64,000 nt of DNA from Polaromonas sp. (GTDB lineage: Bacteria > Pseudomonadota > Gammaproteobacteria > Burkholderiales > Burkholderiaceae_C): assembly GCF_012927455.1 (NCBI RefSeq), contig NZ_JABBPE010000003.1, forward strand, positions 82,970 to 146,969, in the 5' to 3' direction. The translations under genes and the position numbers were made by a program. Below are positions 42,323 to 63,978 of this stretch, piece by piece. Numbering within the stretch: the first letter of the stretch is position 1; every line of letters starts with the position of its first letter. The notes below the pieces were generated by a model. It had not been told where the DNA came from. It was given only the letters and a program-made list of their open reading frames with translations, and ran no database searches.

Positions 42323-42880
42323 ATGCTTGAGATCATCATTCAAGGCCGGGGCGGCCAAGGTGCGCAGACCGCCGGCAACCTGCTGGCGGCCGCTTTTCAT
42401 GCCCAGGGGCTGCACGTTCAATGTTTTGCCAGTTATGGCGGAGCACGCCGTGGCACGCCGGTGAACTCCCATCTCCGAGTCGATCAGAGGCCGGTTCGCT
42501 TGCGCTGCGACATTGAGCTGGCCAGCGCCATTCTGTGCTTTGATGCCAGCCTCCTCGAAGGGAAACTACTGGCCACTGCGGGTCCCGACACCCTGATTGT
42601 GGTGAACTCCGCCAGAAGCGCAGCTGAATTTGCCGAGTTCCTGCCCACCACACGCGTGATCCCGATCGACGCGCTGACGATATCGCGCCAGCATGGCCTC
42701 GGGCGTATCGTTAACTCGGCCTTGCTCGGCGCTTTGGCTCGCGTGATCAAGGCGCCCACACTGGCGATATTGACGCAAGCGTTGGTTGACAACGTACCCA
42801 GGCAGCCTGACGAGAACGTTGCTGCGTGTAATGAAGGCTACCGTTGCGCTGATCGCCAATTGTTCGAAAGTGCGACATGA
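42323..42880 (+). CDS. padE: Phenylglyoxylate dehydrogenase (2-oxoacid:acceptor oxidoreductase) gamma subunit
   Basis: A 185-residue gamma-type subunit of the pyruvate:ferredoxin oxidoreductase superfamily: MLEIIIQGRGGQGAQTAGNL and FASYGGARRGTPVNSHLRV. With padH-F, padG and padI it would decarboxylate phenylglyoxylate to benzoyl-CoA and CO2, last step of anaerobic phenylacetate alpha-oxidation. Assignment to phenylglyoxylate rather than another 2-oxoacid rests on the neighbouring padBCD and padJ genes. GGAAGGAG precedes the ATG. First gene of the plus-strand operon. Confidence 0.85.
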   Translation: MLEIIIQGRGGQGAQTAGNLLAAAFHAQGLHVQCFASYGGARRGTPVNSHLRVDQRPVRLRCDIELASAILCFDASLLEGKLLATAGPDTLIVVNSARSAAEFAEFLPTTRVIPIDALTISRQHGLGRIVNSALLGALARVIKAPTLAILTQALVDNVPRQPDENVAACNEGYRCADRQLFESAT

Positions 42881-44559
42881 ACGCGCCGGTCCCTGCCCTT
42901 ATCCCCACCGTCTGGACCACTGGGAGCACCGAGGCCATCAAGACCGGTACGTGGCGCTCATCGCTGGCCAGGCACATCAAGGCGCCTGCTCCTTGCCACG
43001 GCGCCTGCCCCGTCAATGGCGACATCGCCGAGTGGATTGAATTGGCGCGCCAGCGCGATTTTCACGCTGCCTGGCACGTTTTGGCACGTCACAATCCGTT
43101 TCCTTCGATTGCCGGACGCATCTGCCACCACCCCTGCGAAACGGCATGCAACCGCACCGGTTACGACGAGGCTATTTCCATCTGCAAGCTGGAACGTTTT
43201 GTCGGTGATCAAGCGCTGTCGCAGGGATGGACTTTTGAGCCGGCAGCAACGACTCAGAGCGGTCACGTCGCCATTGTTGGCGGTGGCCCGTCAGGATTGT
43301 CAGCAGCGTTTCAATTGCGCAGCATGGGCTTTGCTGTCACCTTGTACGAGGCGCAGGCGGAACTGGGTGGGGTCATGCGCTACGGCATCCCGGCCTACCG
43401 GCTGACTCGCAATGTGCTCGATGGTGAAATCGCACGCATTGTCGCCATGGGCGTTGCTATTCATTGCAGCCACCGAATCGACAGCGCTGACGCTTTGGTG
43501 CGGCTGGGAAAACAGCACGATGCGCTTTATCTGGCGTTAGGTGCCGCGCGCAATAAGCGCCTGCCCACGCTGGATTACAGCCAGTCCTGGGTCTGCGATG
43601 GCGCCACCTTTCTCGCTGGTGCCAATGCTGGCAAACCCGTGCCATTGGGCAAGCGGCTGCTGGTCATCGGCGGTGGCAGCGCTGCGCTTGATGCTGCGCG
43701 CAGCGCGCGCCGATTGGGACATCAGGTCACCCTGCTGGCGCTGGAGCAGCGCGCCCAATTGCCGGCGCAGGCCGAAGAAGTGGTCGAAGCGTTGGAAGAA
43801 GGCATTGAGGTGATTGACGGCGCCCGCCTGGATGGCGTTGTCGATGCTGGCGTCCAGGGCCTCGCCATCAACTGCACCAAAGTAGTTTTGATTGCTGGCG
43901 CTGAACGTGGCCAGTTCACGGTAACGCCCATTGAAGGCAGTTCCTTCACACTTGGTGCTGACGCCATCGTCACCTGCATTGGTCAGGATCCCGATCTGAC
44001 AGTGCTGGGCGATGGTTTTTCTACTTTGGGCGGATTACTTCAAACCGACGCGCAACTTGCCACCAGCATGCCTGGTGTTTTCGCTGGTGGCGACATGGCC
44101 AGCATTGCACGTTTTGTGACTGAAGCAATTGGCATGGGCCAACGCGCGGCGCACGCCATTGCACGCGAGTTGCGCCAACGCCAGGGCGGGATCACCCCTC
44201 CTCCCGCGCACGCCCGCCACGACGACGAACCGCTGGTGGACCTGCCGGCCATCAGCACGCACTACCACCCGCAACGCGCGCGCGTCCAGACTCCGCGGAC
44301 CGACGCCAATGAACGCCTTCACCGCGACGCCGAAGTGCAGCTTGGCCTGGAACTTGAGCAGGCGCTCGCGGAGAGTGAGCGCTGCTTCTCGTGCGGCACT
44401 TGCATCAACTGCGACAACTGCGTGGTGTACTGCCCCGACATGGCGGTCAATCGTGTAGGCAACGACTACGTCGTGTTGACCGACTACTGCAAAGGCTGCG
44501 GTCTGTGCGTCAAGGAATGCCCAACAGGCTCAATGAAGATGCAGGAGGAAATTCGATGA
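42877..44559 (+). CDS. padH: Phenylglyoxylate dehydrogenase FAD/NAD subunit fused to a 2[4Fe-4S] ferredoxin domain (PadH-PadF type)
   Basis: A 560-residue flavoprotein. Residues 40-91 hold a GltD-type Fe-S domain (Cys40, 44, 83, 87, 91); the FAD motif VAIVGGGPSG is at about 131-140, the NAD(P) motif LLVIGGGSAALDAA around 263. The last 60 residues are a ferredoxin domain with two Cys clusters (CFSCGTCINCDNC and CKGCGLCVKECP). It would pass electrons from the TPP subunit to NAD. In Aromatoleum/Thauera the delta ferredoxin subunit (PadF) is, as recalled, a separate gene; none is present here, and the fused domain would replace it. Overlaps padE and padG by four bases. Confidence 0.82.
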   Translation: MNAPVPALIPTVWTTGSTEAIKTGTWRSSLARHIKAPAPCHGACPVNGDIAEWIELARQRDFHAAWHVLARHNPFPSIAGRICHHPCETACNRTGYDEAISICKLERFVGDQALSQGWTFEPAATTQSGHVAIVGGGPSGLSAAFQLRSMGFAVTLYEAQAELGGVMRYGIPAYRLTRNVLDGEIARIVAMGVAIHCSHRIDSADALVRLGKQHDALYLALGAARNKRLPTLDYSQSWVCDGATFLAGANAGKPVPLGKRLLVIGGGSAALDAARSARRLGHQVTLLALEQRAQLPAQAEEVVEALEEGIEVIDGARLDGVVDAGVQGLAINCTKVVLIAGAERGQFTVTPIEGSSFTLGADAIVTCIGQDPDLTVLGDGFSTLGGLLQTDAQLATSMPGVFAGGDMASIARFVTEAIGMGQRAAHAIARELRQRQGGITPPPAHARHDDEPLVDLPAISTHYHPQRARVQTPRTDANERLHRDAEVQLGLELEQALAESERCFSCGTCINCDNCVVYCPDMAVNRVGNDYVVLTDYCKGCGLCVKECPTGSMKMQEEIR

Positions 44560-45713
44560 ATGCAGCCAACAAGAGCATATTGCTGACCGGCAACCAGGCC
44601 GTCGCCTGGGGCGCACGTCTGTCCCGACCACGTGTAATTCCGTTGTATCCGATCACACCGCAAACCCCGGTGCTTGAGCAACTCATCGAATTTCATGTCG
44701 AGGGCAGCTTGGACGCGGAGATCATCACGCCGGAGTCGGAACACTCCGTGATGTCTGCCTGCATTCCAGCATCACTGGTGGGCGTGAGGGTGTTTACCGC
44801 CACCGCCTCGCAGGGTTTGCTTCTGATGCACGAGTTGCTGCACTACGCGAGCGGCGCGCGTGCCCCGATCGTGATGGCCAACGTCAACCGTACCGTCGCG
44901 TCGCCTTGGGCCTTTTGGCCCGACCAGACCGACAGCCTGTCCCAACGCGACACCGGCTGGATCCAGTACTACGTGGAAAGCGCCCAGGAAGCGCTCGATA
45001 CTGTGATTCAGGCCTATCGCGTGGCCGAGCAAGTGTTGACGCCGGTCATGGTCAATTTGGATGCGTTTTACGTCTCGCATGCCTTGGAGCCAGTGTTGGT
45101 ACCAGGGCAGGCGCTGGTCGATGCCTATTTGCCGGCGTTTGACCCACCGCATCGGCTCGACACCGAGAAGGTCGAGTCGTGGGGCTATGTGGTATCGCAA
45201 GAAATGTTTTTTCGCCACCGCCAGGACCTTGGCGCGGCAATTGCACGGGTGCCGGCACTGGCTGCGCAGGCCGATCACGAATGGGCTGAGCGTACCGGGC
45301 GCAGCCACGGGGTGATTGAGCGTTACCGCTGCGATGGTGCACGCACCGTCATTGTCACCATGGGCAGCATGTGCGGCACCGCACGCGAGGCCGTAGACGC
45401 CATGCGCGAAGCCGGCCAGGCGGTCGGACTCGTCAAAGTCCGCCTGTTTCGGCCCTTGCCCAAGGCACGACTGCTTGAAGCGCTTGCCGATGTCGACGAG
45501 ATCGTTGTGCTGGATCGCAACTACTCCCCTGGCCATGGCGGTGTGTTGCACCAGGAACTGCGTGCGGCTTTGTATGGAAGTGCGATCTCACCACGCATTC
45601 ATGGCCTGCTCGCCGGTGTAGGCGGCGTCAACGTATCACCGGCCAAGATTGCCGAATTTGTCAACCAGGCCACCCAGCGTGCGGTGCAGGCCGATTCCCA
45701 GTGGGTATGTTGA
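44556..45713 (+). CDS. padG: Phenylglyoxylate dehydrogenase alpha subunit
   Basis: A 385-residue alpha subunit of the 2-oxoacid oxidoreductase: N-terminal [20 protein letters not shown] then [27 protein letters not shown] and [20 protein letters not shown], all typical of the pyrimidine-binding domain. A C-terminal domain II follows ([19 protein letters not shown]). The start overlaps the upstream stop (ATGA) with AGGAGG before it. Confidence 0.87.
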
Positions 45714-45727
45714 AGAGGGTGAACACC

Positions 45728-46642
45728 ATGATTCAAATCGAACAAGCCAATCAAGAACCTATGCTGTGCTCCGGGCACGCCGCCTGTCCCGGCTGCATCA
45801 ACGCCCTTTCGGTGCGCCACGTCCTGACCGCCATGGGACGCAAGACCATGGCGGTCATTCCGCCCTCCTGCATGGCCATTATTGCTGGAGCGCAACCGCA
45901 CAGCTCGCTGCGCATACCGGTGTACCAGCCAACGCTCGAATCTGGCGCCGCCGCCGCCACGGGGCTGCGACGCGCGCTCGACGCCCTGAACAAGCGCGAT
46001 ACACAAGTTATCGTGCTGGCCGGCGACGGCGGGACCCTCGACATTGGCTTTCAGTGCCTGTCCTCGGCGGCAGAGCGCAATGAAGATTTCATCTACTTCT
46101 GTCTGGATAACGAAGGCTACATGAACACGGGAGCCCAAAAATCGTCTTCCACACCGCATTTTGCTCGCACCGGATCGACACCGGCGGGAAAGACTTCGCG
46201 CAAGAAAAATCTGACCGAAATCATGGCGGCGCACCGCGTGCCCTATGTAGCCACCGCGAGCGCGGGCCATCTGCCAGACCTGCTGCGCAAGGTTGAAAAG
46301 GCCAAGACGATACAGGGCACCCGCATCATCACGCTCTTGATTCCCTGCATGGAGGGCTGGGGCGTGGCCGACGACGCCGGCTTGCTGGCCGCGCGTTACG
46401 CGGTGGAATCTGGCGCCTTTCCTCTGTATGAGGTGGAAGATGGACATTGCTACACCCTCAACCACTCCAGCAAAACCAGGCCGGTAGCTGACTACCTCGC
46501 GCTGCAGCGGCGCTATCGGCACATGACAAGCGCAGACATTGAAACCCTGCAAGCCGAAATTGACGATGGCTGGACCACGTTGCAGCAACACGCCGCCGCA
46601 AGTCAGGCCAGAGCCCATACGGCCTCGTCCCACTCCACGTGA
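45728..46642 (+). CDS. padI: Phenylglyoxylate dehydrogenase beta subunit (thiamine diphosphate-binding)
   Basis: A 304-residue beta subunit. The TPP/Mg motif is [11 protein letters not shown] followed after about 18 residues by [15 protein letters not shown]. An N-terminal Cys set ([12 protein letters not shown]) may bind a [4Fe-4S] cluster. The ATG at 45728 has GAGGGTG upstream. Fifteen bases follow the padG stop. Confidence 0.87.
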
Positions 46643-46837
46643 TCAAGTTCAACCCCTCCTAGAAAAACTTTCGATGAAGACATCTCTTGTAACGGCAATT
46701 CACTCCTCCACCAGTTTGACGGCTGAGCGGGATTGCCATTCGCGCTTGATCGTCGACGTCGCCAAGACCGCGCAGCGACTTCCAGCCAAAGAGCAAAAGG
46801 TGGCTGCCGCCCAATGCCCCGCCCCACAAGGATTGCC

Positions 46838-49588
46838 ATGAATCTTGCACCCAAGGATGTGCGCAAAGTCCCGACCTACTGTTACCAGTGCGTGGCAGGG
46901 CCCGACTTGCTCACCGTCAAAGTAGAACAGGGCGTGGCTACTGAGGTCGAGCCCAACTTCTGCGCGGCCGGCATTCATCCGGGCAATGGAAAGGTTTGCG
47001 TCAAGGCGTTCGGCCTGGTGCAAAAAACCTACAACCCGAACCGGGTGCTCGCTCCCATGAAGCGCACCAACCCGAAAAAGGGGCGGCACGAAGATCCGGG
47101 CTTCGTGGCCATAACGTGGGACGAAGCGTTTGAACTGATCACCGAGCGCCTGGAGCGCGTGCGTGCCGAGGGCATGACCGACGAGTCGGGCTATCCGCGC
47201 GTGGCGATGAGCTTGGGCGGCGGCGGCACGCCGCAGTCCTACATGGGAACGATGCCGGCCTTTCTGTCGGCCTGGGGTTCGGTCGATTTCGGTTTCGGCT
47301 CGGGTCAGGGTGTCAAGTGCTATCACTCCGAACATCTGTATGGCGAATTCTGGCACCGAGGCTTCACCGTTTCGCCCGACACGCCGATGACCAATTACCT
47401 GATTTCTTGCGGCGCCAATGTAGAAGCTTCCGGCGGCGTGGTGGGGGTAGCCCGACACGCCAAGGCGCGGGTGCGCGGCATGAAGCGAGTGCAGGTGGAG
47501 CCGCATCTGTCCATTACCGGCGCATGCTCAGCCGAATGGGTGCCAATCAAGCCCAAGACCGACCCGGCCTTTCTGTTTGCACTGATGCATGTGCTGCTGC
47601 ATGAAGTGCCACGCGAACGGCTTGATGTGGCCTTCCTGGCGCGCAGCACCGCTTCGCCCTATCTGGTGGGCGATGGCGGCTACTACCTGCGCGAGCCGGC
47701 CAGCCACAAGCCGCTGGTCTTCGATTCGATCCGCCAGACTGCCGTGCCTTTTGATACGCCCGATGTCCACGAAGCGCTTGAGGGCGAGTTCGTGGTCGAG
47801 GCAGTTGAGCACGGACCCGACGGTGATGTGTTGGGTCGCGGGCTACTGCGCGGCCAAACCGCTTTCAGCAAGTTGGTGTCGCACATGCTCACGTTCTCGC
47901 CCGAGTGGGCGGAAAAACTTTGTGATGTGCCCGCCGCCACCATGCGCCGCATTGGCAACGAATTCCTGGACCATGCCTGCGTCGGGCAGACGGTCGAGAT
48001 CGACGGAAAGACCATGCCCTTGCGTCCAGTGGCCGTCAGTCTTGGCAAGACCGTCACCAATGGCTGGGGCGCCTATGAGTGCGTGTGGGCGCGCACCATG
48101 CTGGCCGCGCTGGTCGGTGCATTGGAAGTCCCGGGCGGCACCCTGGGCACCACGGTGCGCTTGCACCGCCCGATGTCACAGCGCCATGAAAGCGTCAAAC
48201 CGGGGCCGGACGGCTTCATGTACAGCCACCTGAACCCGACCGACAAAGCGCACTGGTCGCCCAAGCCCAATATCCGCAATGCCTACCGCACCATGGTGCC
48301 GCTGGCCACCGACGGACCCTGGAGCCAGGCACTGGGGCCAACGCACTTTTCCTGGATGTTTCTTGATGAAACGCCTAAGGGACTGCCGCGGGTCACCCTG
48401 CCCGACGTCTGGTTTGTCTATCGCACCAACCCGGCCATCTCGTTCTGGGACACCGACGGCATCATGGCCAAGATGACGCGTTTTCCCTTTGTCGTGGCCT
48501 TTGCTTACACGCGCGACGAGACCAACCACTTTGCCGATGTGCTGTTGCCCGACGCCACCGACCTGGAAAGTCTGCAACTAATTCGAATAGGCGGCACCAA
48601 ATTCATCGAGCAGTTCTGGACGCAACAAGGCTTTGCACTGCGCCAGCCGGTCATTGCTGCCCGCGGCGAAGCGCGCGACTTCACCGAGATCGCCACGGAA
48701 CTGGCGCTGCGCACCGGTTTGCTGGAAAAATACAACGCAGCCATCAACAAGGGCGCTGCCGGCATGCCACTCAAGACTGCCTATGGCGATTTCTCACTGG
48801 CCATCGACGTTGCGCACAACCGCGAACAAATCTGGGACGCCATCGGACGCTCAGCCAGCGCTGAACTCAGCGAAGGGGCCGAGGTACACGATTTGGCATG
48901 GTGGAAAGAGCACGGCCTGGCCACCAAACCGTTCCCCCAGTCCGACTGGTACCTCTATCCAACGCTGGCTCGGCAGAACCTGCGTTTCGAACTGCCGTAT
49001 CAGGAACGCCTGCAGCGCGTCGGTGCCGAACTCGGCCGGCGTCTGCACGAGCACGATATGCACTGGTGGGACCAGCAGCTGCACGAGTACCAGGCGCTGC
49101 CAGTGGCCAAGGATTTCAGCGAGTTGTGGACGGCAGAACTGGCCAAGACACTGGTGACCAAGGGCGGCAGTATCGCCGACTTCCCGTTCTGGATGTTGAC
49201 GGCGCGAAGCATGCAGTACGCCTGGGGCGGCAACGTCGGCATGCAGATGATCAAGGAAATCGCGGACAACATTGCCGGGCACCGCGGCGTAATCATCAAC
49301 ACCGGCCGGGCGCAACAACTCAGCATCGAGGACGGTGACGACGTGACGATCTCGACGCCGATCCGCAGCGTGCACGGCAAGGCGGTATTGCGCCAAGGCA
49401 TCCGTCCCGACACGTTGCTGCTGATTGGTCAGTTCGACCACTGGGCGACACCGTTCGCCAAGGATTCTGGCGTGCCCAGCATGAATGCCCTCACCCCGAT
49501 GTCGCTGGCGTTGACTGATTCTACCGGTTCGGGCGCCGACATCGTGCGCGTGAGCCTGAACCGCAAAAAGGCCGGAGTATGTTCATGA
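46838..49588 (+). CDS. padB: Phenylacetyl-CoA:acceptor oxidoreductase, molybdopterin catalytic subunit
   Basis: A 916-residue molybdopterin oxidoreductase of the DMSO-reductase superfamily that oxidises phenylacetyl-CoA to phenylglyoxylate with a quinone as acceptor. An N-terminal [4Fe-4S] region has Cys15, 18, 42 and 54. Molybdopterin domain segments such as HPGNGKVCVKAFG, SPDTPMTNYLISCGAN and the C-terminal dinucleotide-binding barrel (MLTARSMQYAWGGNVGMQ) follow. No twin-arginine signal is present, so the enzyme would face the cytoplasm. The known enzyme has a 93-kDa catalytic subunit; size fits roughly. AAGGA precedes the ATG; a 195-base gap separates it from padI. Confidence 0.88.
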   Translation: MNLAPKDVRKVPTYCYQCVAGPDLLTVKVEQGVATEVEPNFCAAGIHPGNGKVCVKAFGLVQKTYNPNRVLAPMKRTNPKKGRHEDPGFVAITWDEAFELITERLERVRAEGMTDESGYPRVAMSLGGGGTPQSYMGTMPAFLSAWGSVDFGFGSGQGVKCYHSEHLYGEFWHRGFTVSPDTPMTNYLISCGANVEASGGVVGVARHAKARVRGMKRVQVEPHLSITGACSAEWVPIKPKTDPAFLFALMHVLLHEVPRERLDVAFLARSTASPYLVGDGGYYLREPASHKPLVFDSIRQTAVPFDTPDVHEALEGEFVVEAVEHGPDGDVLGRGLLRGQTAFSKLVSHMLTFSPEWAEKLCDVPAATMRRIGNEFLDHACVGQTVEIDGKTMPLRPVAVSLGKTVTNGWGAYECVWARTMLAALVGALEVPGGTLGTTVRLHRPMSQRHESVKPGPDGFMYSHLNPTDKAHWSPKPNIRNAYRTMVPLATDGPWSQALGPTHFSWMFLDETPKGLPRVTLPDVWFVYRTNPAISFWDTDGIMAKMTRFPFVVAFAYTRDETNHFADVLLPDATDLESLQLIRIGGTKFIEQFWTQQGFALRQPVIAARGEARDFTEIATELALRTGLLEKYNAAINKGAAGMPLKTAYGDFSLAIDVAHNREQIWDAIGRSASAELSEGAEVHDLAWWKEHGLATKPFPQSDWYLYPTLARQNLRFELPYQERLQRVGAELGRRLHEHDMHWWDQQLHEYQALPVAKDFSELWTAELAKTLVTKGGSIADFPFWMLTARSMQYAWGGNVGMQMIKEIADNIAGHRGVIINTGRAQQLSIEDGDDVTISTPIRSVHGKAVLRQGIRPDTLLLIGQFDHWATPFAKDSGVPSMNALTPMSLALTDSTGSGADIVRVSLNRKKAGVCS

Positions 49589-50235
49589 CACGCTGGGCCA
49601 TGACGGCTGACTTGCGGCGCTGCGTCGGCTGCCAGACCTGCACCGCCGCGTGCAAACATACCAACGCCACGCCGCCAGACGTTCAGTGGCGCCGCGTCAT
49701 TGACATGGAATTCGGCGAATACCCCGACGTCAAGCGCGTCTTCGTGCCGGTCGGCTGCCAGCACTGCGAGGACCCGCCCTGCATGGCCGTGTGTCCCAGC
49801 ACGGCCACCAAGAAACGATCCGACGGCATTGTCACCATTGACTATGACCTGTGCATTGGCTGCTCCTACTGTGCCGTGGCCTGCCCCTATCAGGCGCGCT
49901 ACAAGACCCAGAAGTCGAGCTTTGCCTATGGCGCGCCGACCGAGAACGAGGCCAAGCGCCACGACGAGTCGCGCCTGGCAGTGGCGACCAAATGCACATT
50001 TTGCGTTGATCGCATTGACGCCGGACTGGCACAAGGACTGACGCCGGGCGTAGACCCGGCGGCGACGCCGGCCTGTGTCAACGCCTGCATTGCCGATGCC
50101 CTGGCGTTTGGCGACCTGGACAACCCGCAAAGCAACGTCTCCCAATTGCTGGCGAAAAACCAGAGTTTTCGCATGCATGAAGAGCTTGGCACTGGACCCG
50201 GTTTTCACTATCTCTGGGACAAGGCGGACACATGA
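49585..50235 (+). CDS. padC: Phenylacetyl-CoA:acceptor oxidoreductase, iron-sulfur subunit
   Basis: A 216-residue ferredoxin-like subunit of the DmsB/PhsB kind. Four Cys groups are visible: C13-x2-C-x2-C-x3-C23, C58-C61-C66-C70, C90-C93-C96-C100 and a last group in KCTFC and CVNACIAD, so four [4Fe-4S] clusters. It would carry electrons from PadB to the membrane subunit. The ATG at 49585 overlaps the padB stop (ATGA); an ATG two codons earlier lies too close to the GGAG to be favoured. Confidence 0.9.
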   Translation: MTRWAMTADLRRCVGCQTCTAACKHTNATPPDVQWRRVIDMEFGEYPDVKRVFVPVGCQHCEDPPCMAVCPSTATKKRSDGIVTIDYDLCIGCSYCAVACPYQARYKTQKSSFAYGAPTENEAKRHDESRLAVATKCTFCVDRIDAGLAQGLTPGVDPAATPACVNACIADALAFGDLDNPQSNVSQLLAKNQSFRMHEELGTGPGFHYLWDKADT

Positions 50236-50299
50236 CTTCCAGTTCCGCCACGACGCGCTGGTGCAAGTCAGCTTTCACTGAAACCGATGGGAGACGTCT

Positions 50300-51172
50300 A
50301 TGAGTACCAATGCAACCGGTGCGGCCGGTTTTGGACCCAACCCATGGCAACAGGCCAGTTGGGACTGGCGTGCCGCCGGCAACTTCATCGGCGGCGGCGC
50401 AGGATCCGGCCTGCTGGTTACCAGCGCACTGTTTGCCGCAGCCAACACCAGCACAACCCCGGCCTTCAACGGGCCGCTGTTGCTAGCGCTCACCCTGACT
50501 GGACTGGGCCTGCTGTGCGTCTGGCTCGAGATCGGCCGCCCACTGCGCGCGCTGCATGTGTTCTTCAATCCGCGCACTTCGTGGATGTCACGCGAAGCCT
50601 TTATTGCACTGCTGCTGTTTCCGGCCGGGTTACTGGCGCTGCTGAACGTGGTTGGCTCACTGTGGGCAAGCGCCGCGCTCGCCTTGCTCTTTCTTTACTG
50701 CCAGAGTCGCATGCTGCCGGCGACGCGGGGCATTCCAGCCTGGCGTTCGAAGCAACTCTCGCCGCTCATGTTCGTCACCGGACTGTGCGAAGGGTGTGGC
50801 ATATTTTTTTTACTAGAGCCGAGGCACGGCGCTGCAATAGGCTTTTTCATGCTGCTGCTGGTAGTGCGCTTGGTGCTCTGGAGGCGGTACCGCAGCGCCG
50901 TCGAGCACAGCTTGGCGCCGCGCGCTCGCGCTGCGCTGAACCGGGCCGGACGCATGCTGCAGTTCATCGGCACCGTTGCCCCGTTGTTGCTGCTTGGCGT
51001 CAGTGCATGGCGAGTGAGCGGTGACGCCTCGACTGCGCTAGTGGCTCTTGCCGGCGCCGGCGCCGCCTTCGCCGGCGCCTACTTCAAGTACACGCTGGTG
51101 ACCCGTGCCAGCTTCAATCAGGGGTTTGCACTGACGAAGTTGCCGGTGCGCGGCGTGAGAACCAAGCAGTAA
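50300..51172 (+). CDS. padD: Phenylacetyl-CoA:acceptor oxidoreductase, membrane anchor (DmsC/NrfD-like)
   Basis: A 290-residue protein with about eight hydrophobic segments (for example LLLALTLTGLGLLCVWLEIG and AFIALLLFPAGLLALLNVVG). The stretch FFNPRTSWMSREAF is a DmsC/NrfD-type conserved loop. It would anchor PadBC and pass electrons to quinone. It completes padBCD and lies 65 bases after padC. A small frame starting at 50287 overlaps it and is a shadow. Confidence 0.85.
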   Translation: MSTNATGAAGFGPNPWQQASWDWRAAGNFIGGGAGSGLLVTSALFAAANTSTTPAFNGPLLLALTLTGLGLLCVWLEIGRPLRALHVFFNPRTSWMSREAFIALLLFPAGLLALLNVVGSLWASAALALLFLYCQSRMLPATRGIPAWRSKQLSPLMFVTGLCEGCGIFFLLEPRHGAAIGFFMLLLVVRLVLWRRYRSAVEHSLAPRARAALNRAGRMLQFIGTVAPLLLLGVSAWRVSGDASTALVALAGAGAAFAGAYFKYTLVTRASFNQGFALTKLPVRGVRTKQ

Positions 51173-51363: not shown

Positions 51364-52242
51364 ATGATGCTCGCGCAATTCCTGCAATTCCTTTTCTCGG
51401 GCGTTACCGTCGGGGCGACCTACGGACTGGCCGCATTGGGCTTTACGCTGATTTACAACGCCAGCAACGTGATTAACTTCGCGCAGGGCGAATTCATCAT
51501 GCTCGGTGGCATGCTAGCGGTCTTTTTCACCCAGGCCGGATTGCCACTGCCGGTGGCGCTGGTGCTGTCCATCCTGGTGCCGGCCATCGTCGGCGTGCTG
51601 CTGGAAAAGCTGGCAATCGAACCGGTCAAAGGGGCCGAGACGGTCACCCTGATCATCATCACCATAGGCGCTTCCCTGGTCCTTCGCGGCCTGATCCAGG
51701 TCTGGCTCGGCAAAGGTACCCACAGCCTGCCAGCATTCTCCGGCGAAGTCCCGATGGCCGTACTGGGCGCGACCCTGATGCCGCAAAGCCTGTGGGTGCT
51801 GGGCGTCACTGTGGTGGTCGTGGTCGCACTCTGGTATTTTTTCAACCGAACCATGCACGGCAAGGCCATGCTGGCCACGTCATTTAATCGGGTGGCAGCC
51901 GAATTGGTGGGGATCAACACCAGTTGGGTGCTGTTCATGAGCTTTGCCATGTCGGCTGCACTGGGTGCGTTGGGTGGCATTCTGGTAACGCCGATTACGC
52001 TGACCTCGTACGACGTAGGCATCATGCTCGGCCTCAAAGGTTTTGTCGCTGCGGTCGTTGGTGGCCTGGGCAATGGTCTGGGTGCCGTACTTGGCGGCTT
52101 GTTGGTGGGTATTCTGGAGGCGATGGGTGCGGGCTACATCTCGTCGGCGTACAAGGACGCGATTCCCTTCGTGCTCATCCTGTTCATGCTGTTCTTCATG
52201 CCACGCGGCCTGTTTGGCGGTAAATCATCGGACCGGGTGTGA
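51364..52242 (+). CDS. Liv-type ABC transporter permease (LivH-like) of the phenylacetate cluster
   Basis: A 292-residue permease, MMLAQFLQFLFSGVTVGATY then LGFTLIYNASNVINFAQGEF (LivH signature) and VVGGLGNGLGAVLGGLLVG. It begins a second Liv-type importer, four genes in a row plus a binding protein at 57005. From context the substrate is probably phenylacetate or a related aryl acid; some members of this group import aromatic acids. The start codon is doubled (ATGATG). Confidence 0.92.
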   Translation: MMLAQFLQFLFSGVTVGATYGLAALGFTLIYNASNVINFAQGEFIMLGGMLAVFFTQAGLPLPVALVLSILVPAIVGVLLEKLAIEPVKGAETVTLIIITIGASLVLRGLIQVWLGKGTHSLPAFSGEVPMAVLGATLMPQSLWVLGVTVVVVVALWYFFNRTMHGKAMLATSFNRVAAELVGINTSWVLFMSFAMSAALGALGGILVTPITLTSYDVGIMLGLKGFVAAVVGGLGNGLGAVLGGLLVGILEAMGAGYISSAYKDAIPFVLILFMLFFMPRGLFGGKSSDRV

Positions 52243-52243
52243 C

Positions 52244-53176
52244 ATGAAAAACAGCGCCTACCTCGGCTTGTACCTCATCGTCGCGATTTTACTGGTGCTG
52301 CCCTTTGCAATACCCAACAGCTTCTACATGGATCTGGCAATTCGCATGGCGATCAACGCCATCATCGTGCTGGGCCTGAACCTGCTGATCGGCTTTGCCG
52401 GCCAGATCAGCATGGGCCATGCTGGTTTCCTCGGTATTGGTGCCTATGCATCTGCCGTGCTGCCCACCCACTTCGGCTGGCACCCCCTGCTCGCCATGGG
52501 TGGCGGCGCGCTGACAACCGCTTTACTGGCGGCGGTGCTGGCGCGGCCGATCTTCAAGCTCAAGGGCCACTACCTGGCGATGGCCACACTGGGCCTGGGC
52601 ATCATCATCAACATCGTGCTTCGCAACGAGGCAGACCTGACCGGCGGCCCCGACGGCATGCCGGTGTCGGCGCTCGGACTGCTGGGATTTGAGTTGTCCA
52701 GCGACAAACATTGGTACTGGGTGGTGGCCTTGCTGCTTTCGGTCAGCGTCTGGGCCTCGCTCAACCTGATCGACTCGCCTTTTGGCCGCGCCTTGCGCGC
52801 CTTGCATGGCTCAGAGGTGGCGTCCCAGGTCGCCGGTGTCGATGTTGTGCGCTACAAGGTGTCGATCTTTGTCATCTCGGCGGTCTTTGCCAGCCTGATG
52901 GGCAGCGTCACTGCCCATTACGTCGGTTTTGTCACTCCCAACTTCGCCGACTTTTTTCATTCAATTGAACTGGTCACCATGGTGGTAATTGGCGGCATGG
53001 CCTCGGTTTATGGCTCCCTGGTTGGCGCCGTGCTGCTCACGGCTCTGCCCCAAGCACTCGCCTCGTTCGAGGGCTGGGAGACGGTGGCCTTCGGCACCAT
53101 CCTGATGAGCTGCATGATCTTCATGCCCAAGGGCCTGGTGCCGACACTGGTGGACAAATTCAGCAAACGAGCCTAA
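52244..53176 (+). CDS. Liv-type ABC transporter permease (LivM-like) of the phenylacetate cluster
   Basis: A 310-residue permease: MKNSAYLGLYLIVAILLVLP, GLNLLIGFAGQISMGHAGFL and the LivM-type SPFGRALRALHGSEVASQVAG. C-terminal IFMPKGLVPTLVDKF. Starts one base after the LivH stop. The frame reads back into livH but has no signature there. Confidence 0.92.
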   Translation: MKNSAYLGLYLIVAILLVLPFAIPNSFYMDLAIRMAINAIIVLGLNLLIGFAGQISMGHAGFLGIGAYASAVLPTHFGWHPLLAMGGGALTTALLAAVLARPIFKLKGHYLAMATLGLGIIINIVLRNEADLTGGPDGMPVSALGLLGFELSSDKHWYWVVALLLSVSVWASLNLIDSPFGRALRALHGSEVASQVAGVDVVRYKVSIFVISAVFASLMGSVTAHYVGFVTPNFADFFHSIELVTMVVIGGMASVYGSLVGAVLLTALPQALASFEGWETVAFGTILMSCMIFMPKGLVPTLVDKFSKRA

Positions 53177-53178
53177 GC

Positions 53179-53940
53179 ATGGCACTTCTTGAAGTCAAAC
53201 AACTCTGCGTTCACTTCGGTGGCGTCAAAGCAGTGCAAAACGTCAGCTTCAGCATTGAGGCGGGAACAATCTATGCCGTGATCGGACCCAATGGCGCGGG
53301 CAAGACGACACTGTTCAACCTGATCACCGGGATTTACGCCCCTACCAGTGGCGAAATCAAGCTGGACGGCAACTCGATAGCAGGAAAGACGCCTAACGAA
53401 CTCGCCAAATGCGGCGTCTCCCGAACTTTCCAAAACCTGCAGGTATGCATGAACATGAGTGCCATCGAGAACGTGATGGTCGGAGCCCACCTGCGCCTGG
53501 ACCGCAACCCCCTCAAAGCAGCGCTGCGTTTACCTTCTATTACGCGCCGGGACGCGGAGTTGCGCACCGAATCAGCTGAGCTGATGCGATTTGTCGGACT
53601 GGATGCTTACATCCAAGCGCGCGCCGACAGCATGCCATATGGCACCCTTAAGCGGCTGGAGGTCGCCCGCGCACTGGCCTTGAAGCCACGCATCGTTTTT
53701 CTGGATGAGCCCGCAGCCGGGCTGAATCCGAAAGAAACCATCGAGGTCGATGACCTGATACGCAAGGTGGCTGATTCCGGTGTCACGGTCGTGCTCGTAG
53801 AGCACGACATGAAGATGGTAATGAACCTCTCCAACCGCATTCTCGTACTCAACTACGGGGAAAAGCTGGCTGAAGGGACGGGGGAAGAAATTCGCAAAAA
53901 TCCCGACGTGATCGCCGCATACCTTGGCGTCAACGCATAA
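53179..53940 (+). CDS. Liv-type ABC transporter ATPase (LivG-like) of the phenylacetate cluster
   Basis: A 253-residue ATPase: Walker [10 protein letters not shown], Walker B RIVFLDEPAAGLNP and switch VLVEHDMKMVM; the signature segment is MPYGTLKRLEVARALA. Starts two bases after the LivM stop. Partner of the fused LivF below. Confidence 0.93.
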   Translation: MALLEVKQLCVHFGGVKAVQNVSFSIEAGTIYAVIGPNGAGKTTLFNLITGIYAPTSGEIKLDGNSIAGKTPNELAKCGVSRTFQNLQVCMNMSAIENVMVGAHLRLDRNPLKAALRLPSITRRDAELRTESAELMRFVGLDAYIQARADSMPYGTLKRLEVARALALKPRIVFLDEPAAGLNPKETIEVDDLIRKVADSGVTVVLVEHDMKMVMNLSNRILVLNYGEKLAEGTGEEIRKNPDVIAAYLGVNA

Positions 53941-53956: not shown

Positions 53957-55273
53957 ATGCAAGCACTACGCATCATCTGCGAACAACACGCCAATTTGTC
54001 GCGCCTGGCTACAACCATCGACTTTGTCGCCGAGGAAATAGAAGGCGGTAGCAAAGTCAATCCGGTCTTCTTCCAATCGCTCTTTGAATACATCGAACAG
54101 TTTGTCAACCATTGTCTCCCTCTGAAGGAAGGCGATTGTTCACTTCGCGCTTTACGTCTACGCAGTCCGGATGCCGACGCCATCCTCGACCCCTTGCAGG
54201 AGGAACATCGCAACGGACAGGAAATTCTCAGAGCCTTGCGTGGCCAAACTATGGACGTCGCCAATGGCCAATTGGCGTCCCCCGCGTTTGCGGCCGCGTT
54301 GCGTATCTATACGACCGGACTGAAAAGCCGCATCCGAATCGAGAGGCAGTTTGCGATGCCACTTGCCCGCGAGGTCCTGACCGCAGAAGACTGGGCGCAA
54401 ATAGATCGCGCCTTCCTGGCTAACGAGGACCCGCTCCTTGGCGACAAGGTTAAGGCGCAGTTTCCTGAAATACTTCACCGCATCGCCCACCTGGCGACAG
54501 CGTCGGTCGGTGCGGGCGGGCAGACGACCAGCCGTTCGCAGGCCAGTTCGCCACCTGTTGGGTCTGATGTGCTTCTGCGTGTGTCGGAGATGGAAAGTTG
54601 CTACGGCCGCATCAAGGCCTTGAAAGGCATCAACCTGGAAGTACGCCGTGGGGAAACGGTGGCGCTGGTAGGCGCCAATGGCGCCGGGAAGACCACCTTT
54701 TTACGTGCCGTCTCCGGTGTACAGCCGATGAGCGCCGGCAGCATCGACTTCGACGGCGAAGACATCAGCAAGGTGCGTTCGGACATGCGCATGCGCCGCG
54801 GCATCTGCCAAAGCCCCGAGGGGCGCCAAGTGTTCAGGCCGCTGTCGATCGAGGACAACCTGCGACTGGGGGCCTACACGCAGCCCAAGCACCAAATCCA
54901 AGGTGATCTGGAGAGGGTCTTCTCAATGTTCCCTATCCTCAAGGAAAAACGGCTGCTGCCGGCAGGAACCCTGTCTGGGGGTCAGCAGCAGATGCTGGCG
55001 ATTGGCAGGGCGTTGATGGGACGACCGAAGCTGCTGCTGCTCGACGAACCGTCCATGGGACTGGCTCCACTGATGGTGAGAGATGTGTTTAACGTCATTA
55101 AGACGCTCAAGGACCAGGGTATGACCATTCTGTTGGTTGAGCAAAACGCCTTCGCCGCGCTCGCAATTTCCGATCGTGGCTACGTACTGGAAACCGGCCA
55201 CATCACCTTGACCGGCACCGGCCGGGAATTGACTAGCAATGAACAGGTGCGTGCGGCGTATCTGGGCATGTGA
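53957..55273 (+). CDS. Fusion: N-terminal hemerythrin-like domain plus LivF-type ABC ATPase
   Basis: A 438-residue protein, almost twice a normal LivF. Residues 1-about 140 resemble the hemerythrin HHE family (EQHANLSRL, SLFEYIEQFVNHC, then LRALRLRSPDADAILDPLQ, EEHRNGQEILRALRG, AREVLTAEDWAQIDRAF). Of the usual di-iron ligands His11, Glu58 and His84 remain, but the expected HH pair is Leu54-Pro55 and the last His is Arg, so metal binding looks doubtful. After a linker, residues about 200-438 form a complete Liv[47 protein letters not shown]. It is the second ATPase of the phenylacetate-cluster transporter. Start ATG at 53957. Confidence 0.9.
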   Translation: MQALRIICEQHANLSRLATTIDFVAEEIEGGSKVNPVFFQSLFEYIEQFVNHCLPLKEGDCSLRALRLRSPDADAILDPLQEEHRNGQEILRALRGQTMDVANGQLASPAFAAALRIYTTGLKSRIRIERQFAMPLAREVLTAEDWAQIDRAFLANEDPLLGDKVKAQFPEILHRIAHLATASVGAGGQTTSRSQASSPPVGSDVLLRVSEMESCYGRIKALKGINLEVRRGETVALVGANGAGKTTFLRAVSGVQPMSAGSIDFDGEDISKVRSDMRMRRGICQSPEGRQVFRPLSIEDNLRLGAYTQPKHQIQGDLERVFSMFPILKEKRLLPAGTLSGGQQQMLAIGRALMGRPKLLLLDEPSMGLAPLMVRDVFNVIKTLKDQGMTILLVEQNAFAALAISDRGYVLETGHITLTGTGRELTSNEQVRAAYLGM

Positions 55274-55293: not shown

Positions 55294-56610
55294 ATGCAAG
55301 TAGCCCTTGAACATATCGAGACCGCCAGTCGTGACGAAATATCTGCCCTGCAACTCGATCGCATCAAATGGACGCTGCAGCACGCTTACGACAACGTGCC
55401 GCACTACAAACAAAAATTTGATGATCAAGGCGTTCACCCAGCCGACCTGAAAACCCTGGCTGACATGGCCAAATTTCCGTTCACCACCAAGATCGATCTG
55501 CGCGACAACTACCCATTTGGTCTTTTTGCCGTGCCCCGCACCCAGGTGGCGCGCCTGCACGCATCTTCCGGCACAACAGGAAAACCAATTGTCGTCGGCT
55601 ACACAGCCAAAGATATTGATAACTGGGCCAATCTGATGGCGCGGTCGATCCGCGCTGCCGGTGGCCGCGCCGGCGACACCTGTCACATCGCCTATGGCTA
55701 CGGCTTATTTACTGGCGGTCTGGGTGCGCACTACGGTGCCGAGCGCGCCGGCTGCATGGTGGTGCCGATGTCAGGCGGGCAGACGGAAAAGCAGGTGCAG
55801 TTGATTCGTGACTTCCGGCCAGAGATCATCATGGTGACCCCGTCCTACTCGCTGGTCATTGCGGAGGAGTTCGAGCGCCAGGGCATCAAACCGGACGACA
55901 TATCCCTGAAAATCGGCATCTTCGGTGCCGAACCGTGGGGTCATAACATGCGCTGCGAGATTGAGCGCAAGCTGGGCATCGACGCCATCGACATCTACGG
56001 ACTGACCGAAGTGATGGGCCCCGGCGTCGCCTGCGAGTGTATCGAATCCAAAGATGGCCCGGTGATTTGGGAAGATCATTTTTACCCCGAAATCATCAAT
56101 CCGGATACTGGCGAAGTAGTCGCGGATGGCGAGTATGGTGAACTGGTCTTCACCTCACTGTCCAAGGAAGCCACGCCAGTGATCCGCTACCGCACGCGCG
56201 ACCTGACCCGGTTGCTGGAGCCGACCGCGCGCAGCTTTCGCCGCCTGGATCGCATTACCGGGCGCTCCGACGATATGCTGATCGTGCGAGGCGTCAACGT
56301 GTTCCCAAGTCAGATCGAAGAGCAGATCCTGCGCGACAAGCGCTTAGGAGGCACCTACCAGATCCTGCTCAACCGCGATGGTCACCTCGACAACGTCGAA
56401 GTGCGGTGCGAAATTCAGCGTGAGTTCTCGGGCCATTTTTCGCCTGCCGACACCGAGGCGATCAGCAAGGAATTGCAGCACCATATCAAGACTTTGGTCG
56501 GGATCTCGACGCGGATCACCATCATGGAATATGACTCCATTCCGCGCACGCTGACCGGCAAAGCGCGCCGCGTGATCGACACGCGCCCCAAACAATCCTC
56601 GGCGTACTGA
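55294..56610 (+). CDS. padJ: Phenylacetate-CoA ligase (anaerobic pathway)
   Basis: A 438-residue AMP-forming ligase that makes phenylacetyl-CoA. AMP-binding motif LHASSGTTGKPIVVGYT at about residue 88, adenylation-domain segment IFGAEPWGHNMRCEIE, ATP motif IYGLTEVMGPGVACEC and C-terminal GRSDDMLIVRGVNVFPSQIEE, then PRTLTGKARRVID with the catalytic Lys. It matches the PaaK/PadJ family. GGAG precedes the ATG; a GTG at 55270 overlapping the livF stop is possible. It lies between the transporter and the thiolase remnant. Confidence 0.9.
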   Translation: MQVALEHIETASRDEISALQLDRIKWTLQHAYDNVPHYKQKFDDQGVHPADLKTLADMAKFPFTTKIDLRDNYPFGLFAVPRTQVARLHASSGTTGKPIVVGYTAKDIDNWANLMARSIRAAGGRAGDTCHIAYGYGLFTGGLGAHYGAERAGCMVVPMSGGQTEKQVQLIRDFRPEIIMVTPSYSLVIAEEFERQGIKPDDISLKIGIFGAEPWGHNMRCEIERKLGIDAIDIYGLTEVMGPGVACECIESKDGPVIWEDHFYPEIINPDTGEVVADGEYGELVFTSLSKEATPVIRYRTRDLTRLLEPTARSFRRLDRITGRSDDMLIVRGVNVFPSQIEEQILRDKRLGGTYQILLNRDGHLDNVEVRCEIQREFSGHFSPADTEAISKELQHHIKTLVGISTRITIMEYDSIPRTLTGKARRVIDTRPKQSSAY

Positions 56611-56611
56611 T

Positions 56612-56982
56612 ATGGCTGAAGCCTTGATCTGCGATGCCATTCGCACCCCCATCGGCCGCCATGGTGACACACGGGCCATGGCAAATGCGGGGGTGGCGCC
56701 GCGCATTCATGGGCAGTGGCCCGGCGCCGGCGGTGCGCAGAGTGTGGAACGCTTCACATTTTCGCGCGTGGCGGACGATGAGGCACGGGTCCATCCCAAT
56801 GGCGGCAATCGCGATAGGGCATTCTCTAGGAATGAGTGGCGCTCGTCTGGTGACGACCGCAAGTTACGAACTGGCACGGCACGGCATGGCATGGCATGGC
56901 ATGGCATGGCGGGCGCTATGCGCTTTGCACCATGAGTATCGGCGTTAGGCAAGGTATTGCGCTCAATTTCGAACGCATTTAA
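56612..56982 (+). pseudogene. Acetyl-CoA acetyltransferase/beta-ketoadipyl-CoA thiolase remnant with internal deletion
   Basis: The first 17 codons (MAEALICDAIRTPIGRHG) match the start of thiolases of the PcaF/PaaJ type. The middle of about 300 codons is missing. In two other frames the C-terminal part resumes: IAIGHSLGMSGARLVTTASY and after a frame change GRYALCTMSIGVRQGIAL to a TAA at 56980-56982. A GGCAC/GGCAT five-base tandem repeat (56873-56907) sits at the frame change. It is not functional. Confidence 0.85.
56873..56910 (+). repeat. Pentanucleotide tandem repeat (GGCAC x2, GGCAT x5)
   Basis: Seven consecutive five-base units inside the thiolase remnant; each unit gained or lost changes the reading frame. 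Likely grown by polymerase slippage in a gene no longer under selection. Confidence 0.9.
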
Positions 56983-57004: not shown

Positions 57005-58183
57005 ATGAAATTCAAATTGAAATCTATCGCTCTTTGTGCAGCTGTTGTTCTTGGAAGCTTTAGTGTTTATGGTGCCGACCCCATCAAGATTGGCTCCATA
57101 CTTTCTATCACCGGCCCGGCCGCCTTCCTCGGTGATCCAGAGTTGAAAACACTGCAACTGTATGTTGAAGAGTTAAACAAAAAAGGCGGCGTGATCGGAC
57201 GTCAAGTGCAGTTGGTCCATTACGATGACGGCAGTGACGCGAATAAAGCCAACGGGTTTGCGAAGCGCCTGATCGATGATGACAAAGTCGATATCTTGAT
57301 AGGCGGTACTACTACGGGCTCGACCATGTCGATGGTGCCACTAGCAGAAAAAGCAAACATCCCATTTATCTCCTTGGCCGGCGCCGTAGTCATCGTCGAA
57401 CCGGTGAAGAAATGGGTTTTCAAGACACCGCATACCGACCGCATGGCTGCCGAAAAAGTGTTTGAGAACATGAAGAAGCGCGGCATCAGCAAGGTCGCAC
57501 TGCTGTCGGAAACCAGCGGTTTTGGTCAATCCGGCAAGAAGGAAACCGAAGGGGTTGCGGCCAAATATGGCATCACATTGGTCGCCAGCGAAACCTACGG
57601 TCCTAAAGACACCGATACCAGCCCGCAACTGACGAAAATCAGAAACGCGGCAGGTGTGCAGGCAGTGTTCGTGTTCGGTTTGGGTCAAGGTCCAGCCATT
57701 GTCGCCAAGAATTACAAGCAACTCGGTATCACCTTGCCTATGTATCAGTCACATGGCGTGGCCTCTGATGAATTTCTGAAGCTGGCAGGTCCGGCAGCCG
57801 AAGGAATTCGTCTTCCCTCGCCTGCTCAGTTGATCCCCACAAAGTTGGCCGCCAACGATCCTCAAAAGCCAGTGGTGACGGCCTATACGCTCGCTTATAA
57901 AACGCGCTACCAGCAGGATGTATCGAGCTTTGGCGGCTATGCCTACGATGGTTTGATGATTGCGGTCGATGCGATCAAGCGCGCTGGTGGTACTGACAAA
58001 GCCAAGGTGCGAGACGCCATCGAAGCCACTCGCGGTTACGTAGGCTCAAGCGGCAATGTAAATATGTCGACGACTGACCACATGGGCCTCGACCTGTCGT
58101 CCTTTCGCATGCTAGAAATCAAAGGTGGCGATTGGAAGATTTCCGACCCTGACGCCACTGGCAGTACCGTAAGCGTCAAATAA
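57005..58183 (+). CDS. Liv-type periplasmic substrate-binding protein of the phenylacetate cluster
   Basis: A 392-residue type-1 periplasmic binding protein: signal peptide ending VYGADPIKIG near residue 22, then ILSITGPAAFLGDPELKTL and the ligand loop LVHYDDGSDANKANGFAKRL. AGGAG precedes the ATG. It follows padJ and the thiolase remnant, so it would be co-transcribed with the permease genes at 51364-55273 and supply them with substrate. Confidence 0.92.
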   Translation: MKFKLKSIALCAAVVLGSFSVYGADPIKIGSILSITGPAAFLGDPELKTLQLYVEELNKKGGVIGRQVQLVHYDDGSDANKANGFAKRLIDDDKVDILIGGTTTGSTMSMVPLAEKANIPFISLAGAVVIVEPVKKWVFKTPHTDRMAAEKVFENMKKRGISKVALLSETSGFGQSGKKETEGVAAKYGITLVASETYGPKDTDTSPQLTKIRNAAGVQAVFVFGLGQGPAIVAKNYKQLGITLPMYQSHGVASDEFLKLAGPAAEGIRLPSPAQLIPTKLAANDPQKPVVTAYTLAYKTRYQQDVSSFGGYAYDGLMIAVDAIKRAGGTDKAKVRDAIEATRGYVGSSGNVNMSTTDHMGLDLSSFRMLEIKGGDWKISDPDATGSTVSVK

Positions 58184-58585: not shown

Positions 58586-59467
58586 TTACCCAATCTGCTT
58601 CAGGAGCTCTGCCATGCTCTGCTGAATATCAAGTCCGGAAGTATTGACTGTCACGTCGGCCTTACGGTACATAGGCTCTCGCCCCGCCAATATCCGCTCG
58701 AGATCTTGCATAGCCTCGCGGTTGTCACCCATGGGCCGCTGGTCTCCCTGTGCTACGACGCGGGTCATATGCTCGGCGGCGCTCGCCTTGAGCCAGACCG
58801 TGTAACAGGAACTGAGCAATTCATCGAATGTTGCGGGTTCGGTGGCAATACTACCCCCTGTAGACAGCACAAAACGATCATGGCTCTGGATGATCGCTTC
58901 CAACGAGCGCCGTTCATACCGGCGATAAGCGGCTTGTCCATAGAGCGAAAACACTTGAGACAATGTCGTCCCCGCAGTCTGTTCGATAACTTCGCCGAGT
59001 TCGATGAAAGCGACCCTCAGATGCGCCGCAAGTAATTTGCCTAAACTTGTCTTGCCCGCCCCACGCAGCCCGACCATGGCGATACGATGACGGCGATCCT
59101 TTTTTTCAAAAGTACTCCGAAGCAGTTTTTGGGCCTCTCCCAACTGACTCGGTGACAAACGCGAGAGAAACTGACCGAGCAGTGTGAGTTCCGCCGGCTG
59201 CTCCGGCCCTACCCGAATGATCTCTTCCAGCGGCATGGCCATTGCCTGCGCGACTTGGCGCAGACGAAGAATGGAAATATTGCCCTCTCCGCTTTCCAGT
59301 TGCGCAAGATAACGCACCGACACCCCCGAATCGCGTGCCAAAATTCCCCGAGTCATTCCCCGTCGCACCCTTAGATCACGAATGTGCTCGCCAAGACCAT
59401 GCAGATACTGGCTATCGTCGTCTCGTAATATCGACGCTGGCGATTTTTCTAAATTATTTTTGCTCAT
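58586..59467 (-). CDS. BzdR/BoxR-family transcriptional regulator (HTH plus shikimate-kinase-like domain)
   Basis: A 293-residue regulator with the two-domain build of BzdR/BoxR: an XRE helix-turn-helix at about residues 25-85 (RDLRVRRGMTRGILARDSG, VRYLAQLESGEGNISIL) and a shikimate-kinase-like domain from about 125 with an intact Walker A GLRGAGKT (133-140). Known members repress anaerobic (bzd) or aerobic (box) benzoyl-CoA genes and are released by benzoyl-CoA. The product of this pad cluster is benzoyl-CoA, so the regulator fits the pathway. The ATG at 59467 matches the family N-terminus; a GTG four codons upstream is possible. Confidence 0.9.
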   Translation of the reverse strand: MSKNNLEKSPASILRDDDSQYLHGLGEHIRDLRVRRGMTRGILARDSGVSVRYLAQLESGEGNISILRLRQVAQAMAMPLEEIIRVGPEQPAELTLLGQFLSRLSPSQLGEAQKLLRSTFEKKDRRHRIAMVGLRGAGKTSLGKLLAAHLRVAFIELGEVIEQTAGTTLSQVFSLYGQAAYRRYERRSLEAIIQSHDRFVLSTGGSIATEPATFDELLSSCYTVWLKASAAEHMTRVVAQGDQRPMGDNREAMQDLERILAGREPMYRKADVTVNTSGLDIQQSMAELLKQIG

Positions 59468-59480
59468 AAGTTCGATCACA

Positions 59481-63910: not shown

Positions 63911-63978
63911 CCATGCGCGGCAGGCCAACCGTCCGCGGCAATATTTTTGAACCCATTACCAGTCGAGGGGAAACACAA

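Follow-up and report, generated by a model that had tools for sequence, protein, structure and literature searches.

What does a hemerythrin (HHE) domain do on the ATPase subunit of an ABC importer, and what could it do there beside genes of a presumed anaerobic phenylacetate pathway? The question is raised by one gene of Polaromonas sp., lying in a 64,000-nucleotide stretch of DNA, the whole of which is called the window here (Table 1). A reading of this DNA from its letters alone (the sequence-only reading) had suggested that the domain could be an oxygen or redox sensor, or else a relic used for docking.

Table 1. Positions of genes, domains and ligand residues in the window
Feature	Position	Strand	Remarks
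Phenylglyoxylate-dehydrogenase-like subunits	42877..46642	+	PadG, PadI models matched well below cut-offs
padBCD-type module	46832..51172	+	molybdopterin oxidoreductase, 4Fe-4S protein, third protein without family match
LivH-type permease	51367..52242	+	93-94% identical to congener copies L157-L160, three of four in paa clusters
LivM-type permease	52244..53176	+	named by homology to neighbouring set
LivG-type ATPase	53179..53940	+	
HHE-LivF fusion gene	53957..55273	+	single open frame, 438 aa
Hemerythrin (HHE) domain, residues 5-135	53969..54361	+	Pfam match and predicted four-helix bundle
HHE ligand positions	H11 53987, L54 54116, E58 54128, H84 54206, R125 54329, E129 54341		
Connector helix (163-179) and low-confidence linker (180-204)	54443..54568	+	AlphaFold2 model
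LivF-type ABC ATPase domain	54569..55270	+	Walker A GANGAGKT (239) and LSGGQ (339), both intact
PaaK-family phenylacetate-CoA ligase	55300..56610	+	TIGR02155, 705.9 bits vs cut-off 646.3
Decayed paaJ (3-oxoadipyl-CoA thiolase) remnant	56612..56982	+	start and 3' end kept, ~780 bp of middle gone
LivK-type binding protein	57005..58183	+	89% identical to paa-linked copy of congener L225

The fusion gene and its relatives

Searches against Pfam confirmed that an HHE-type N-terminal domain stands in one frame with a complete LivF-type ATPase, as the sequence-only reading had claimed. The profile check that it proposed, against PF01814 (Hemerythrin), matched residues 5-135 (26.7 bits, E-value = 8.3e-6, gathering score 25.3), and PF00005 (ABC_tran) matched residues 222-366 with 104 bits. 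When the whole genome was searched with PF01814, the fusion was the weakest of seven matches (29.8 bits). Chance similarity between helical sequences was rejected because of the Pfam match and because both families were matched by all 52 aligned fusions, the window copy included. Structure prediction, also proposed in that reading, gave a four-helix bundle: AlphaFold2 placed helices at residues 2-29, 36-69, 73-102 and 108-140 (ten-residue pLDDT means 62-88), and in the full model (mean pLDDT 77) the predicted bundle is followed by a short extra helix, a linker of low confidence (about residues 180-201) and the ABC domain, whose relative placement was left out of account (pTM 0.57). When the window HHE domain was compared with the PDB by phmmer, no relevant match came up; a profile built from its relatives gave weak matches to YtfE and FBXL5. 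The 50 Foldseek matches listed for the full model include ABC proteins and are silent on the HHE part. Judged by its sequence, the ATPase is LivF-like and not LivF proper (267 bits with the NCBIfam LivF equivalog, cut-off 441); it is assigned to the LivF type by the ABC_tran match, the Walker A and signature motifs and the partner LivH, LivM and LivG genes, of which LivH and LivG matched their NCBIfam models under the equivalog cut-offs.

The fusion would be only apparent if translation began internally near residue 205, giving an ordinary LivF and leaving the upstream frame unread. From about residue 141 to 223, the only in-frame starts are GTG 54569, GTG 54581, ATG 54590 and TTG 54620. The two GTG codons would suit such a start, and a ribosome-binding site is not obvious ahead of ATG 53957, but neither is a clear one present ahead of the internal GTGs. 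Furthermore, codon usage in the N-terminal part is best in this frame (0.154; the runner-up, one reverse frame, reached 0.063), Met is found at residue 1 in 80 of 80 relatives (the best 80 of 91), and the HHE part is under purifying selection in the window. An internal start giving plain LivF was judged unlikely from the conserved Met1 and the upstream codon usage, and we regard it as hardly credible; this route to refuting the sequence-only reading was not borne out.

Scanning 84,980 species genomes gave 91 confirmed relatives. In the best 80 of these 91, a shared Met opens a single frame through the HHE and ABC parts without exception, although three run off the contig end, and the record titles are betaproteobacterial (genera or groups), apart from one MAG titled Neisseriales and several whose title says no more than Proteobacteria. 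The 80 scanned loci have the order LivH, LivM, LivG and then the fused gene, as far as the fetched locus extends. A single odd genome or an assembly error was rejected for the fusion because the same architecture recurs in all of these 80; it is conserved and no isolated oddity. In the window copy, the ligand changes described below sit amid several further coding changes, with the frame open. Of 399 genomes of the order, 53 gave a match to the N-terminal part at 1e-8. The strongest matches (41-56% identity, one 33%) are the same fusion; the remainder of those fetched are HHE genes standing alone, except for two that are a reversed fusion. The genus of the window (87 genomes) has eight fused copies in seven genomes, and a sample of the class (369 genomes) has the fusion in three genomes outside the order (E-value up to 1e-45). 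HHE relatives occur in 21 of 72,556 plasmid records, all below 60% identity, and the 15 matches listed name no ABC gene.

In a tree of 57 LivF domains, 41 N-terminal fusions fall on one side of a branch valued at 100/98, by a bootstrap that is not yet fully settled. The window copy is nested among intact Rhodoferax and Polaromonas copies, and its ATPase part is up to 89% identical to those of intact near relatives. The two reversed fusions (L174:9738-11132 and L175:92-1417, both on the minus strand) carry the HHE domain, over the Pfam cut-off, C-terminally on a distant LivF and keep an intact HHPKE-type motif; in L175, a gene for a protocatechuate 4,5-dioxygenase subunit lies ~6 kb away, behind the Liv genes. 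Additionally, in 4 of the 50 stand-alone-HHE loci fetched, the HHE gene is directly 3' of LivG-LivF, and one of the four is beside a gentisate-dioxygenase-like gene (TIGR02272, below cut-off).

Ligand loss in two copies

We take the six ligands of an HHE domain to be H, HxxxE, H and HxxxE, at the positions of known HHE domains. Of 94 distinct proteins (107 sequences minus 13 duplicates, leaving aside L228-L230 and the reversed fusions), 92 retain all six. The exceptions are the window copy (H54L, H125R) and L112, from a MAG of the same genus (R11, H54, K58, H84, H125, D129); positions 54 and 125 are each His in 93 of the 94. The sequence-only reading thus named the residues correctly: H11, E58 and H84 are retained, the HH pair reads Leu54-Pro55 and the last His has become Arg125. 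E129 is retained too.

The change is not confined to ligands. Where the other proteins are at least 97% conserved (31 of 160 positions in the HHE part, 11 in the connector, 127 in the ATPase), the window copy differs at 9, 5 and 4 positions, respectively, and D59 and E130, which adjoin ligands, are among the nine; L112 differs at 6, 1 and 2. The other 92 proteins have 0.26 HHE changes on average and none has more than one, except the distant L173 with six. The excess in the HHE part over the ATPase is significant for both copies (P-value = 6e-5 for the window and 8e-4 for L112, Fisher test). Model confidence also falls at residues 51-60, with a block mean of 62 in the window copy vs 89 in the intact L076. 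Of 13 pairs, 12 give the window HHE part a dN/dS of 0.13-0.29 and one is undefined; dS nears saturation, and pairs of intact copies have similar values. General relaxation of the whole HHE part is unsupported by these ratios; conserved sites have changed instead. From these comparisons, the window domain has kept its scaffold and not its metal site, and the site is very probably dead. The diiron ligand set required of a hemerythrin-domain sensor is incomplete in the window and complete in its intact kin. The idea that this copy is a functioning oxygen or redox sensor for the protection of oxygen-sensitive enzymes is not supported, given the loss of two of six ligands and the unequal change (9/31 vs 4/127); the proposals of a degenerate domain and of a relic are supported.

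We looked for padB in 24 other genomes, 23 with the N-terminal fusion and one (G317) with the reversed fusion only. It was found in three: G407 (88% identical over the part present), G647 (73%) and G317 (74%). G407, the only one of the 24 with a padB more than 85% identical to that of the window, is the genome of L112; its pad contig additionally encodes PaaK, LivK and PaaJ, the last in a full-length frame. Window-type padB is thus present in both genomes with decayed ligands (window and G407) vs none of the 22 with intact N-terminal fusions, one of which has any padB (P-value = 0.004 for window-type and 0.011 for any padB, Fisher test, kinship ignored). The two copies probably decayed in separate events, because the residues lost differ and because the copies fall in different subclades of the LivF tree. 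Near the decayed L112 fusion, a possible hemerythrin-like protein was noticed by eye (L112:3380-3880), with no NCBIfam match.

Genomic setting and origin of the importer

The padBCD-type module of the window is presumed to serve anaerobic phenylacetyl-CoA oxidation. Its pad names are our assignment by resemblance; PadB and PadC matched generic Mo and Fe-S domains only and PadD none. The ligase that follows the fusion is 88-91% identical to the aerobic-cluster PaaK of Polaromonas and Rhodoferax, vs 50-56% to the padJ of same-family pad loci and 61-64% to that of loci of the G111 family. In four paa loci (L162, L169, L170 and L117), the order is PaaX, LivHMG, HHE-LivF, PaaN, PaaG, ..., PaaK, PaaJ, LivK, and the window retains the same order with HHE-LivF, PaaK, the paaJ remnant and LivK; queries with PaaN, PaaG and PaaX found no match in the window at 1e-4. 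Because the importer, PaaK and LivK resemble aerobic paa clusters and a decayed paaJ lies between them, the importer was very probably derived from such a cluster and recruited to the pad pathway of the window. The window genome has a separate aerobic paa cluster, near which is a different, plain Liv importer. Inside the paaJ remnant, a short ATGGC-type repeat run is inserted at about 56880-56905.

The sequence-only reading had suggested looking for the same fusion in other pad clusters, where it was not encountered: tblastn at 1e-8 found HHE in none of the 20 other pad loci fetched. Ten of these have LivKHMGF with a plain LivF (57-62% identical) just ahead of padB, three have a more distant Liv importer and seven have none in the piece fetched. 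The family HMM gave one weak HHE-like match (E-value = 4e-4, L207), in a frame not joined to LivF. In pad locus L213, the plain LivF is preceded by a long open frame, which proved not to encode HHE.

Two further features were seen downstream in the window. On the minus strand, 58586-59479 encodes a regulator with HTH and shikimate-kinase-like parts, presumably of the BzdR/BoxR type, and a gene that looks IclR-like by eye adjoins it. At 63375-63950, a rubrerythrin-like ferritin protein directly follows 2-oxoacid oxidoreductase genes, and the same trio is found by padB in L215 and L216.

We analyzed the flanks of the fusions at large for 92 loci; of the 94 distinct proteins, two lack a long flank. 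PaaN, PaaJ, PaaK and PaaA are named from NCBIfam models over cut-off, PaaX fell just under it (263.6 vs 264.55), and PaaG, PaaH and PaaI are provisional names. A candidate oxygen-dependent enzyme is present in 53 loci: 34 have an AurF-/RNR-like ferritin-fold protein, accompanied in four of them by a flavin monooxygenase, 18 have only the latter and one has PaaA/C. Oxygen dependence in this count is mainly that of the ferritin-like protein, a presumed oxygenase that stays below the AurF and RNR cut-offs, or of the flavin monooxygenase. The remaining loci comprise 24 with other paa genes only, 14 with nothing recognised and one, the window, with PadB. In all, paa or other candidate oxygen-dependent genes occur in 77 of 92 flanks, and padB in that of the window only. 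The intact version is thus mostly found with oxygen-dependent pathways instead of the oxygen-sensitive enzymes beside which a sensor had been imagined. Among 24 fusion genomes, PaaA/PaaC lie less than 15 kb from the fusion in nine and on another contig in five, including the window genome. The unassigned ferritin-like protein of the 34 loci (for example, L223:1504-2526 and L222:2513-3541) adjoins a ferredoxin-type reductase and also occurs in paa clusters of genomes without PaaA/C over cut-off, such as G509 and G352; it is a candidate for an alternative phenylacetyl-CoA oxygenase.

Possible roles of the HHE domain

The most economical account of these settings ties the HHE module to aromatic importers of oxygen-dependent pathways. 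Our preferred explanation, which we consider probable, is that the window has a diiron-dead HHE domain on an importer that moved from an aerobic to an anaerobic pathway and lost its control. In the intact relatives, the domain would bind two irons and relay the oxygen or redox state to the ATPase, and uptake would thus track the oxygen needed by the pathway. With recruitment to an oxygen-independent pathway, oxygen control would become useless or harmful and the ligands would disappear; the importer, now constitutive, would be left with a helical bundle free of metal. Several observations count against this explanation. The decayed cases are only two, in one genus, and the L112 fusion shares its genome with the pad cluster and does not lie inside it. 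In G647, padB coexists with an intact, paa-linked fusion, and 13 of the 14 loci without a recognised aromatic gene have intact ligands. PaaA/PaaC were absent or below cut-off in 10 of the 24 fusion genomes. In L158, which has the closest paa-linked ligase and fusion, the transporter is divergent from paaK, unlike in the window. Moreover, purifying selection on the window HHE part suggests that the domain was not simply free to decay.

Gating of import by oxygen or redox state in the intact kin, argued from the genomic context and from the known hemerythrin sensors in the passages covered of a review (PMC9388753), is a serious suggestion that falls just short of probable. We propose more tentatively that HHE-LivF forms a class of oxygen- or redox-gated aromatic-acid ABC importers, fused at least twice, whose ATPase would run only with the oxygen of the pathway present; the window copy would then be a natural ungated mutant, released on anaerobic reuse. 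Alternatively, the intact domain could be an oxygen store, carrier or scavenger at the membrane, supplying or protecting an oxygenase pathway with no gate on the ATPase. The mostly oxygen-dependent context and the separate HHE genes next to LivF (the four loci above) agree with a store, as do passages of PMC6449761, which note stand-alone HHE genes (COG3945) in benzoate clusters and propose oxygen storage or scavenging. However, fusion to the ATPase in two arrangements, N- and C-terminal, fits regulation or tethering better than a bulk store, and we find this alternative rather unlikely.

Two other readings concern what the bundle itself does. The window domain might still be a sensor with an altered site (a mononuclear metal, a thiol or a ligand), by which it gates uptake on behalf of the anaerobic enzymes. 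It retains four of the six ligands, with C53 and H52 close by, the dN/dS values above are low (0.13-0.29 in 12 of 13 pairs) and AlphaFold2 still predicts a four-helix bundle, but the nine near-invariant changes, D59 and E130 beside the ligands among them, and the loss of model confidence at 51-60 make it improbable. That the bundle was only ever a structural or docking module, in which the metal ligands never mattered, would agree with its persistence in the window despite an incomplete ligand set; it is more improbable still, given six ligands kept in 92 of 94 proteins while just 31 of 160 HHE positions are 97% conserved.

Extra domains that control transport are known on the ATPase subunits of ABC importers, as in MetN and OpuA, where they are C-terminal, sense amino acids or ionic strength and are not hemerythrins. 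The HHE domain of FBXL5 senses iron and oxygen. It is an HHE-fold regulatory domain with remote profile likeness to the fusions (PDB 3v5x, E-value = 0.001), but belongs to a eukaryotic ubiquitin-ligase subunit. According to the passages covered of PMC9388753, DcrH, Bhr-DGC and Bhr-HD-GYP likewise fuse a diiron hemerythrin domain to a signalling or catalytic output, but with chemotaxis or c-di-GMP enzymes as the output and with conserved iron ligands. The same source describes a C-terminal hemerythrin-like domain on P1B-5 transport ATPases, whose role in oxygen, redox or iron sensing is unsettled; these are single-chain P-type metal pumps with a variant ligand set, unrelated to ABC ATPases. The term 'ABC' has no occurrence in the text covered of this review. 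The benzoate-cluster HHE genes, which in betaproteobacteria accompany a benzoate ABC transporter, share the association of HHE with an aromatic importer, but they are separate genes, and the passages describe neither a fusion nor a decayed copy (PMC6449761). Main-text section 6 and the passages covered of PMC4919030 contain no ABC fusion, and its S2 Fig (architectures) may list one; in the parts covered of the D. aromatica RCB paper, pad genes are marked absent in a table and hemerythrin is unmentioned. An HHE domain on an ABC importer ATPase was not reported in the literature searched, with subscription journals mostly outside it, and the known sensor roles of hemerythrin domains are with chemotaxis and c-di-GMP enzymes.

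If the intact forms do gate by oxygen, bacteria living at oxic-anoxic boundaries would match aromatic uptake, at the transport step itself, to the oxygen that their oxygenases require. The decayed window copy would make a ready natural test pair with its close intact kin, whose ATPase parts are so similar. Additionally, one genome (G401) has two HHE-LivF importers (L157 and L158), one in a paa cluster and the other beside a flavin monooxygenase, an MBL-fold protein and a VOC protein.
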